Below, one piece after another: positions 21,400 through 27,687 of a DNA stretch of 35,500 nt. The DNA comes from Candidatus Pacearchaeota archaeon (GTDB lineage: Archaea > Nanobdellota > Nanobdellia > Pacearchaeales > GW2011-AR1): contig VGKQ01000008.1 in assembly GCA_016866995.1 (NCBI GenBank), forward strand, positions 1 through 35,500. The letters are read 5' to 3'. The notes beneath the pieces are model-generated. The model was not told the origin of the DNA and did no database searches. It worked only from the letters and a program-made list of their open reading frames with translations. The position numbers and the translations under genes were made by a program. The first letter of the stretch is position 1. Each line of letters starts with the position of its first letter.

Positions 21400-22284
21400 A
21401 TGAATAAGCAGGAAATAGAAAATTACAGAAAAGCAGGAAAAATAGCCAAAGAAGCTGTAAAATTTGCAAGAGAAATAATAAAAAAAGATTCAAATTTATT
21501 GGAAATAGCTGAGAAAATTGAGAAAAAGATAGAAGAATTAGGAGGAAAGTGTGCTTTTCCAGTAAATTTAAGCATAAACGAGATTGCAGCCCATTACACT
21601 CCTTCAAGTAATGATGAAAAAAAAGCAGAAGGTTTGTTAAAAATAGATATTGGCATACATATTCAAGGATATATTGCAGATACTGCTTTTAGTTTAGATT
21701 TGGAAAACTTAGAGGAAAATAAAAAATTAATTGAAGCTTGCGAGTTAGCCCTGCAGGAAGCAATAAAAACAGCAAAAAAAGATGTAAGAATCAGCGAGAT
21801 AGGAAAATCAATTCATAAAAAAATAACAGAAGCAGGATTTTCTCCAATACGAAATCTGTCAGGGCATCAACTTGGAAATTATCTTATTCACGCTGGATTG
21901 ACAATTCCAAATTATGACAATAATAATCCTGTCAAATTAGAAGAAGGAGCATATGCCATCGAGCCATTTGCAACAACAGGAGAAGGAGTTGTAAGAGATG
22001 GCGCAAAATCAGGAATTTACAGGCTCGAGGAAAGAAAAGCAATAAGAGATAATTTGGCTCGCGAGATACTTAATTTTATTGAAAAAGAATACAAAACACT
22101 TCCATTTTGCGAGAGGTGGATTGTAAAAAAATTTTCAAGCAGAGCTTTGATGAGCTTGAGATTAATGGAACAGGCAGGAATAATCTCGCAATATTCCCAG
22201 CTCGTGGAAAAATCAGGCAAGAAAGTTTCCCAGGCAGAACATACAATCTTGGTTTCAGACAAAATTGAAGTTACAACAAATTAA
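21400..22284 (+). CDS. map: Methionine aminopeptidase, type II
   Basis: A 294-residue archaeal-type MetAP that removes the initiator Met from nascent proteins. Substrate His is H65 in AAHYTP; the dinuclear metal ligands are D83 (KIDIG), D94 (YIADTA), H156 (LSGHQL), E188 (AIEPF) and E280 (QAEHT). The type II helical insert lies at about 195-265. It is transcribed away from the gene at 21358 from a short shared AT-rich promoter containing the small hairpin AAGCTT-TTT-AAGCTT. Confidence 0.95.
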   Translation: MNKQEIENYRKAGKIAKEAVKFAREIIKKDSNLLEIAEKIEKKIEELGGKCAFPVNLSINEIAAHYTPSSNDEKKAEGLLKIDIGIHIQGYIADTAFSLDLENLEENKKLIEACELALQEAIKTAKKDVRISEIGKSIHKKITEAGFSPIRNLSGHQLGNYLIHAGLTIPNYDNNNPVKLEEGAYAIEPFATTGEGVVRDGAKSGIYRLEERKAIRDNLAREILNFIEKEYKTLPFCERWIVKKFSSRALMSLRLMEQAGIISQYSQLVEKSGKKVSQAEHTILVSDKIEVTTN

Positions 22285-22544
22285 TAATAAACAACATCAT
22301 GATGGTCGTAGTCAAGAAGCCTTACAATCTTCTCATTTTCCAATATTTCATAAACTAAAACAAAATTCCTGACATGAACGCTTCTCTGCCCAGCCATGTT
22401 TCCTGTCAATGGCTCTCCTATTTTGGGATTTTCCAGAATTTCATTTATTTTTCTTGTTAATATTTCAAACTGCAGTTTGTCTTTTTTAGAAAGTTTGGAG
22501 AAAACTCTGTCTAAATGTTCAGAAACTTCAAGAATATAAACCAT
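22281..22544 (-). CDS. RelE-family toxin
   Basis: An 87-residue RelE-like protein: MVYILEVSEHLDRVFSKLSK, a helix pair, GEPLTGNMAGQRSVHVRNFVLVYEI, and the final LLDYDHHDVVYY. The 'pL.g...g.rsvhv..f.lvYe' core and the His-rich tail fit mRNA interferases of the RelE/YoeB type. It follows its RHH antitoxin by 8 bases and its stop overlaps the convergent map gene by four bases. Confidence 0.82.
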   Translation of the reverse strand: MVYILEVSEHLDRVFSKLSKKDKLQFEILTRKINEILENPKIGEPLTGNMAGQRSVHVRNFVLVYEILENEKIVRLLDYDHHDVVYY

Positions 22545-22552
22545 AAGGATAA

Positions 22553-22780
22553 TTAAACATACCTCTTCTTAAAATTCTCCATGCTTCCTATCTTGATAAA
22601 TTTTCCTTTTCTTATAGCTTCCAGCCTTTGCAGATATTCTGCCCTGACTTTTGGCTTTTCTTCAAGCTGCGCTTTCATGAAGATATCTATTTGCTTGCTC
22701 ATGCTTATTCCATTCTGCCTGCAAAAGTCAGAAAACTTCTGATAAGTTTCTTCTTCCACATTGAATGTTTTTAATGCCAT
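22553..22780 (-). CDS. Ribbon-helix-helix antitoxin
   Basis: A 75-residue protein with the RHH pattern ALKTFNVEEETYQKFSDFCRQNGISMSKQIDIFM followed by a basic toxin-binding tail. It is the first gene of a normal antitoxin-toxin operon. An inverted repeat TTAAATAAC/GTTATTTAA (22797-22824) overlaps its TATA box and is the likely autoregulatory operator. Confidence 0.8.
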   Translation of the reverse strand: MALKTFNVEEETYQKFSDFCRQNGISMSKQIDIFMKAQLEEKPKVRAEYLQRLEAIRKGKFIKIGSMENFKKRYV

Positions 22781-25416: not shown

Positions 25417-25764
25417 TTAATTTTCCTCCTCTCCAAACATCAGGCTTAGTTTTCTTGCATCATTAAAAGCAATTCTCACAAAATCATCCATAATTCTTTC
25501 CTGCTGTTTGATAAATTCTACTATTTCTTTTGGAATAGAAACAGCATACGAATTTCCCACAATTCTCATTTTAACATGAAACTGCTTATTCTTTAATTGC
25601 TGAAATCTCTGATATTCTGCCTCATCATCAGGGTGAATAATTTTTTCTCCGCATTTCTCGCACTGAAGTGCTCGAAGTACAAATCCATTTCTCTCAATAG
25701 AAACAGGCTTCATTTTCAGATTGCATTTTCCGCATAAAATTGTGTTTGAAAATATGTCACTCAT
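25417..25764 (-). CDS. Zinc-ribbon plus AbrB-like regulator
   Basis: A 115-residue protein. The N-terminal zinc ribbon has CGKC (11-14) and CEKC (35-38); the C-terminal AbrB/SpoVT-like domain has FHVKMRIVGNSYAVSIPKEIVEFI. This combination suggests a DNA-binding regulator. Upstream lies a remarkable hairpin chain (25820-25945), a TATA box near 25957-25966 and three TGCACAA copies, so this gene probably has a structured leader of about 170 bases and may control itself (inference). Confidence 0.8.
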   Translation of the reverse strand: MSDIFSNTILCGKCNLKMKPVSIERNGFVLRALQCEKCGEKIIHPDDEAEYQRFQQLKNKQFHVKMRIVGNSYAVSIPKEIVEFIKQQERIMDDFVRIAFNDARKLSLMFGEEEN

Positions 25765-25819: not shown

Positions 25820-25945
25820 GTTCTTTCTCTGAAAGAACATGAAGCTATATCTCTTGCGAGATATAGCTGGGAAAGGAGGTATATCTGTATATACCTTATG
25901 TATACACATAAAGGATATACTATTTAAATCTTTCGATTTAAATAG
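25820..25945 (-). other. Chain of five hairpins in the leader of the zinc-ribbon/AbrB gene
   Basis: Five strong inverted repeats follow each other: GTTCTTTC-TCT-GAAAGAAC (25820-25838), AGCTATATCTC-TTGC-GAGATATAGCT (25843-25868, 11 bp), AGGTATAT-CTGT-ATATACCT (25877-25896), CCTTATGT...ACATAAAGG (25894-25914, one bulge) and CTATTTAAATC-TTTC-GATTTAAATAG (25920-25945, 11 bp). The third and fourth share CCT, and GTATATC (25879-25885) can instead pair with GATATAC (25914-25920), so at least two alternative folds exist. Confidence 0.75.
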
Positions 25946-25948
25946 CTT

Positions 25949-25992
25949 TGCACAACCATATAAAATCCTGCACAAAAAATTAATCTGCACAA
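25949..25992 (-). promoter_or_regulatory. TATA box flanked by three TGCACAA repeats
   Basis: TGCACAA occurs at 25949, 25969 and 25986 around a TATA-like CATATAAAAT (25957-25966). On the minus strand these read TTGTGCA. Spacing is 20 and 17 bases. They are likely operator sites for the hairpin leader and the gene at 25764. Confidence 0.5.
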
Positions 25993-27063: not shown

Positions 27064-27687
27064 ATGAATATGGAACTAAAAGAGATAAAAGAAAACATAA
27101 AAAAATTTTTCACATGGCTCTGGAAATCAGACAGTGTTTTAAGCTGGATTGTTTCATTGATTCTGGCTTTTCTTATTGTCAGATTTATTTTCTTTCCTCT
27201 TTTATCCCTGATTCTAGGAACAAGCCTGCCTCTTGTGGTAGTTGAAAGTTCAAGCATGTCTCATCCAGGAGGTTTTATTGGAAACACTCTTGGATTGCAA
27301 GGAAGTTTTGACACATGGTGGCTTCAAGTTCATGACTGGTATGAGGAAAGAAATATAACAGAACAGGAAGCTGAAAAATGGAAAATGAGAACAGGAATGG
27401 AAAAAGGAGATATCATAGTTGTTTCTGGCTACGGAAAGCCAAAAATAGGGGATATTATAATCTTCAATGCAAACCAAGCCCACCCAATAATTCACAGAAT
27501 AATAAACAAGACAACAATAAATAATCAAGTTATATATTCAACAAAAGGCGACAATAACCCTGAACAATTATATGTGGAAAAGCAGATTCCAGAAGATGCA
27601 ATAGTTGGAAAAGCAGTATTTAAAATTCCAAAATTGGGCTGGATAAAATTAATTTTTGTGAATATAATTAATTTATTCAGAAGCTGA
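27064..27687 (+). CDS. Signal peptidase I, archaeal S26B type
   Basis: A 207-residue membrane protease that removes signal peptides from exported proteins. A hydrophobic anchor (about 24-58) is followed by the catalytic Ser in VVESSSMSHPGG (S64). His replaces the bacterial Lys (PIIHRI, H144), and TKGDNNPEQL carries the Asp (D163), as in S26B/Sec11 enzymes. A C-terminal hydrophobic stretch (about 185-204) may be a second span. TATA-like GTTTAAAA (27040-27047) gives a leaderless start. Confidence 0.92.
   Translation: MNMELKEIKENIKKFFTWLWKSDSVLSWIVSLILAFLIVRFIFFPLLSLILGTSLPLVVVESSSMSHPGGFIGNTLGLQGSFDTWWLQVHDWYEERNITEQEAEKWKMRTGMEKGDIIVVSGYGKPKIGDIIIFNANQAHPIIHRIINKTTINNQVIYSTKGDNNPEQLYVEKQIPEDAIVGKAVFKIPKLGWIKLIFVNIINLFRS

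Follow-up and report, generated by a model that had tools for sequence, protein, structure and literature searches.

The chain of hairpins at 25820–25945 of the window (the whole 35,500-nucleotide stretch of Pacearchaeota DNA that was analysed) is not a single object but three layers on the minus strand: a promoter, an operator and a structured 5′ leader. The minus strand is the one to read because the gene for an AbrB-like protein, 25417–25764, lies on it. We consider it likely that the three layers together serve this zinc-ribbon/AbrB regulator gene, that the gene is autoregulated at the level of DNA and that the leader acts on the same mRNA. Comparison with related genomes supports the assignment of the promoter, the operator, the leader structure and their cis linkage.

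All five hairpins described in a sequence-only reading of this DNA were found at their coordinates: one of 8 bp with a 3 nt loop (25820–25838), one of 11 bp (25843–25868), one of 8 bp (25877–25896), a bulged one (25887–25920) and a second one of 11 bp (25920–25945). They are real and exceed chance, with a fold z of about −7: the plus strand of 25820–25945 gives −6.7 against dinucleotide shuffles and the minus strand of the 280 nt intergenic region gives −7.0 against shuffles. The proposed location, after a TATA box in the leader of the zinc-ribbon/AbrB gene, is borne out by the comparison of orthologous upstream regions. The idea of a structured RNA element holds for part of the region, which is a structured leader with compensatory changes, but not for the entire chain of hairpins.

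A zinc-ribbon protein with an AbrB-like domain

Pfam, the cysteine pairs, a conserved motif, the predicted fold and the orthologues all point to a 115-amino-acid zinc-ribbon protein with an AbrB/MazE-type DNA-binding domain. The N-terminal zinc ribbon contains Cys11, Cys14, Cys35 and Cys38, which are invariant among the orthologues, while the C-terminal AbrB/MazE-like hairpin carries the string VGNSYxxSIPKE, conserved throughout them. The Pfam family MazE_antitoxin matches residues 67–83 with an E value of 1.4e-4 and 22.2 bits, under the curated cut-off of 24.7, and the match to NCBIfam TIGR02609 is likewise weak. The AlphaFold model is of moderate confidence (mean pLDDT 76) and agrees with this domain reading, with strands predicted at residues 65–69 and 72–76 (pLDDT about 75). 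A Foldseek search with the model returned nothing significant (best E 0.087), and the assignment of the AbrB fold therefore rests on sequence motifs. The conserved motif, together with its sub-threshold Pfam score, is consistent with the AbrB swapped hairpin.

Orthologues are present in 163 of the 181 genomes of the window's family, and the upstream DNA of 165 orthologues was used to compare promoters and leaders. The genome of the window itself measures 1.06 Mb in 70 contigs. The neighbours of the gene in the window encode a Cdc48-like ATPase and small membrane proteins; a toxin gene adjoining the AbrB gene, as in type II toxin–antitoxin systems of the MazEF or Doc type, was not found within the window. 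A RelE/YafQ-like toxin gene (22281–22544, minus strand; TIGR02385 above cut-off) is located just downstream of the Cdc48-like ATPase gene. It is preceded by a small gene (22553–22780, minus strand) that resembles its antitoxin and is not paired with the AbrB gene. An archaeal signal peptidase I gene (TIGR02228) occupies 27064–27687 on the plus strand. By eye, a similar signal peptidase N-terminal stretch seems to be divergently encoded upstream of AbrB in four relatives (L032, L038, L048 and L058).

Promoter and operator on the DNA

The promoter spans 25935–25921 on the minus strand and has the layout CGAAA-nn-TTTAAATA. Its BRE (CGAAA, 25931–25935) is conserved directly before the TATA box (TTTAAATA, 25921–25928) in the orthologous upstream regions. 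For 14 relatives the distance from the initial T of the TATA box to the ATG is exactly 29–30 nt, and their mRNAs are expected to be leaderless. Since these leaderless relatives calibrate the distance from the TATA box, which runs from 25928 to 25921 in the window, the transcription start of the window is predicted at about 25898–25899, minus strand. The match of the leader model R3, described below, begins at this same site (25899).

An inverted copy of the TATA box at 25938–25945 pairs with the BRE and TATA box to form the hairpin at 25920–25945. A TATA hairpin of this length (11–12 bp) occurs only in the window; the next best is 8 bp and the median elsewhere is 4 bp. As it was found in the window alone, the TATA hairpin is a peculiarity of the window's species. 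Together with the arm 25914–25920 it would be promoter DNA and should not be transcribed. The sequence-only reading had also pointed to an alternative pairing between GTATATC (25879–25885) and GATATAC (25914–25920). The complementarity is indeed there in the sequence, but the pairing should not form in RNA because its second arm lies in untranscribed promoter DNA, upstream of the predicted start at about 25898. The suggested switch RNA of five hairpins is not supported: one of its hairpins is confined to the window and its alternative pairing extends beyond the predicted transcript.

What the bulged hairpin at 25887–25920 and the GTATATC/GATATAC pairing reflect is the mutual pairing of operator palindromes. 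The operator consists of tandem GTGTATACAC-like palindromes that span the start site from 25920 to 25887 on the minus strand, namely GTATATCC (25920–25913), GTGTATACAT (25907–25898) and GTATATAC (25894–25887). With a combined score for promoter and operator of at least 18, a BRE and TATA box with two spaced GTGTATACAC-like words downstream is present in 141 of the 165 orthologous upstream regions and in none of 825 shuffled ones. The commonest spacing between the words is 13 nt. A search for the pattern GTRTATACN{2,6}GTRTATAC gives a single match in the 1.06 Mb genome of the window, at the AbrB promoter. Across the family there is usually about one such pair per genome, mostly at the AbrB promoter, and a reversed-pattern control gave 0 matches in the 181 genomes. 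Because the operator occurs once, beside its own gene, autoregulation is favoured over a wide regulon. The palindromic repeats on the gene's own promoter are conserved together with the AbrB-like gene, and the GTGTATACAC palindromes are probably the operator of the encoded zinc-ribbon/AbrB protein.

One relative (G191) has 70 matches to the GTRTATAC pair per strand, compared with about one elsewhere, and the matches listed share an identical 20 bp GTATATACNNNNGTATATAC spacing; they may represent either a repeat family or an expanded set of operators. Further upstream of the BRE, the window contains three copies of TGCACAA at 25949–25992, with starts 20 and 17 nt apart. A few relatives have TGTGCA or TGCACA words at distances of about −26, −46 and −63 from the TATA box (17 sites against an expected 4; 9 of 138 regions), and these words upstream of the BRE could be a site for a second regulator.

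The structured 5′ leader

Downstream of the predicted start, the minus strand contains a covarying secondary structure in the predicted 5′ UTR. Its first element is P1, the 5′-terminal hairpin AGGUAUAU-acag-AUAUACCU at 25877–25896, the 5′ arm of which overlaps the last operator unit. This is followed by a conserved pyrimidine tract, ACCUCCUUUC (25871–25880), the TTTC core of which is invariant or nearly so in an alignment of 40 sequences (A1). Next comes P2, an 11 bp hairpin closed by a GCAA tetraloop (25843–25868), and a conserved tail, CAUGUUC (25835–25841), which corresponds to the consensus YAURNU(C/A)AAA and to invariant A, T and T columns in A1. The 8 bp hairpin P3, GUUCUUUC-aga-GAAAGAAC (25820–25838), overlaps the tail motif; it is species-specific and absent from the family consensus.

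This order, with P1 at the 5′ end and then ACCUCYUUUC(AACC), the P2 stem-loop and YAURNU(C/A)AAA, defines what we label type A. By our labelling, 53 of the 165 upstream regions are type A, 15 are type B and 97 are neither, so that 68 have a leader. The pyrimidine tract is in the right place in 70 upstream regions with a strong promoter and operator, and it is also present in the type B leader, which is specific to one genus (g56). Type B shares CACCUCUUUUC, but its stem is longer and contains a conserved internal loop, AAAGA/AAACUR. Pairs are formed in 89.7% of the type B cells, clearly above slid versions, and the covariation is thinner. Members include L075, L083, L097 and L122, while L099 seems to exchange the internal loop for full pairing.

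Comparison of homologous leaders, which are kept upstream of the orthologues, reveals compensatory changes in P2; this is the check that the sequence-only reading had proposed. In A1, double changes occur in seven of the eight consensus pairs. The 8 bp consensus is paired in 91.7% of the cells, compared with 78.2% after shuffling and at most 51.4% after sliding, and the covariation score is 0.621 versus 0.356 for shuffled sequences, although the A1 sequences were chosen by eye as bearing the element, which inflates the apparent pairing. For this reason the safer evidence is the held-out search, the single matches genome by genome and a control for P1. In that control, a significant fold at the predicted 5′ end is found at 76% of 70 leader loci and at 7% of 57 relatives that have the operator and lack the leader (p = 7e-16); a strong P1 is confined to loci that also have the other parts of the leader.

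These data bear on the possibility that only DNA is involved, with all palindromes being protein-binding operators and P1 and P2 being extended operators rather than RNA structures. The operator units are indeed palindromic, AbrB-type proteins bind DNA, and P1 shares its 5′ arm with an operator unit. Yet P2 is unlike the operator, its sequence changes completely while its pairing is kept, and P1 pairing is missing at loci with an operator but no leader. Moreover, the four-base loops of P2 include seven GNRA and two UUCG loops when read on the gene strand and one GNRA-type loop on the other strand, nine against one. As these loops sit on the gene strand, an RNA is favoured over a DNA palindrome, and we regard an arrangement of DNA operators alone as quite unlikely.

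A covariance model of the leader (R2), which uses the RNAalifold structure and was trained with the window included, finds matches in 46 of the 181 family genomes, one in each except for one weak extra match in one genome. Those whose position was compared are immediately 5′ of the AbrB gene. Searches of 200 genomes from the order and 378 from the class gave matches within the window's family only. Because the training of R2 included the window, a further model (R3) was built from 21 sequences with the window left out. With R3, the window is the top match of the genome to which it belongs (E 1.9e-4, 43.8 bits), the next place scoring 20.3. Rfam 15 gave no match at gathering or permissive thresholds. 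The leader is thus single-copy, in cis to the AbrB gene and found only in the window's family.

A trans-acting small RNA, made from the AbrB promoter while the downstream gene is read separately, would fit a compact folded RNA with its own promoter, and the spacing between leader and AbrB ATG varies from 0 to 379 nt. The element is, however, located upstream of the AbrB gene and co-directional with it, and many relatives have the leader directly against the ATG, so that a second promoter could not fit in between. About 20 of 47 model matches end no more than about 8 nt from the first ATG, which is that of AbrB or of a short upstream ORF. We judge a stand-alone small RNA, one of the options of the sequence-only reading, very improbable. 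Another option was the remnant of a palindromic mobile element, suggested by the many perfect inverted repeats within a short span. The element is not repeated elsewhere in the genome, where just one hairpin and short fragments recur; neither the multiple copies nor the target duplications of a MITE or palindromic mobile element were found. A search of a plasmid collection yielded one spurious partial match and no plasmid relative. Given also the orthologous position and the covariation over dozens of genera, the chance of such a remnant is negligible.

A near-copy of P3 (27 nt, 96%, comprising the hairpin 25820–25838 plus CAAAGCACG) is present in the same genome at G000 C3:6158–6184 (L002:1476–1540). 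A TATA-like box and a TATCCTTTC tract precede it, and an ORF for a 190-amino-acid membrane protein (L002:1570–2142) follows. The locus matches the leader model weakly, at 17.4 bits, and is perhaps a distant second leader.

On a poorly resolved gene tree the leader state requires about 23 gains or losses, at least eight of which are forced on well supported branches. With more than half of the orthologues lacking it and repeated gain and loss, the leader is not essential and has been dispensable over evolution. In seven loci (L036, L039, L050, L101, L133, L148 and L160) the transcript includes, between promoter and AbrB, a short ORF that often encodes a small membrane protein, and a different family of short ORFs recurs upstream of the AbrB orthologue in L041, L106 and L134.

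Proposed control at the levels of DNA and RNA

In the proposed mechanism, a dimer of the AbrB-like protein would bind the palindromes, cover the start site and repress its own promoter, resulting in negative autoregulation. After transcription, the 5′-terminal P1 and the module of P2 and the pyrimidine tract would act in cis on their own mRNA, most likely by providing a protein-binding site that limits translation or sets the stability of the first ORF. A role in translation initiation or 5′-end stability is the simplest reading because the element often ends near the first ATG. Since another small ORF comes first in some operons, the target of the leader may be the transcript instead of the translation of AbrB.

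Three other functions were considered for the RNA and rejected. P2 as an intrinsic terminator is not supported because the U-run that follows it (in the window, UUCAUGUUC) is not conserved. Mimicry of an anti-Shine–Dalgarno sequence by CCUCC was set aside, as by eye the tract varies (CCUCC, CCUCU, CCCCU or CUUCC), whereas an rRNA-like tail would be expected to stay constant. An L7Ae-binding k-turn, with a C stem, a 3 nt bulge, tandem G–A pairs and an NC stem, was not recognized by eye either: the type A stem lacks an internal loop, and in type B the loop AAAGA/AAACUR does not fit, as 6 nt are left on its non-bulged strand.

As the leader tracks one gene, a protein ligand is likelier than a metabolite. 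A riboswitch for a metabolite or ion would agree with conserved single-stranded motifs beside a covarying stem, with the regulatory nature of the gene and with the additional conserved internal loop of type B. Its restriction to a single gene, with one copy per genome in one family, speaks against it, as do the small and simple leader, the lack of an Rfam riboswitch match and the fact that no conserved alternative pairing was found inside the transcript; a riboswitch is accordingly improbable. The protein bound by the leader could be the AbrB-like protein itself through its zinc ribbon. Its AbrB half would then bind the GTGTATACAC repeats and its zinc ribbon the folded leader, consisting of P2 and of P1 with the last operator unit as an arm. 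We put forward this dual autoregulation by DNA and RNA as a speculative, rather doubtful extension of the preferred reading.

Three known systems come closest. Archaeal L7Ae limits its own mRNA through a k-turn structure in the 5′ UTR (PMC5539422). Both leaders are structured 5′ UTRs of archaeal mRNAs, and the limitation of translation by a bound protein that was shown for L7Ae is proposed here. The AbrB leader differs in having no recognizable k-turn, a different protein, an additional DNA operator and a ligand that is only predicted. The archaeal ribosomal-protein leaders of S15, eL15 and L4 (PMC7247131) are likewise single-gene cis leaders with covariation support, but the AbrB gene is not a ribosomal-protein gene and its leader has another structure. 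DPANN, Woesearchaeota and Pacearchaeota are not mentioned in that paper. On the DNA side, AbrB-fold proteins autoregulate antitoxin operons in the manner of MazE6 (PMC9477884), where, as expected here, an AbrB/MazE-fold protein binds palindromes within the promoter of its own gene. The AbrB gene analysed here differs in having no noted toxin partner, a zinc ribbon in its protein, and a different operator and leader. Our search of the open-access literature turned up no description of a structured cis-acting leader in DPANN archaea, nor any article dealing with a leader of this kind in Pacearchaeota or with a leader for AbrB; the leader family is apparently undescribed.

Because relatives switch the same gene between leaderless and leadered forms, pairs of lineages allow a direct test of what a 5′ leader contributes to expression in archaea. 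The region offers a regulator circuit that can be tested, comprising a defined operator, a predicted start and a covariation-supported leader, in organisms that are mostly uncultured. If the dual reading were true, a single stretch would hold a DNA-plus-RNA autoregulatory module that is new for DPANN archaea.
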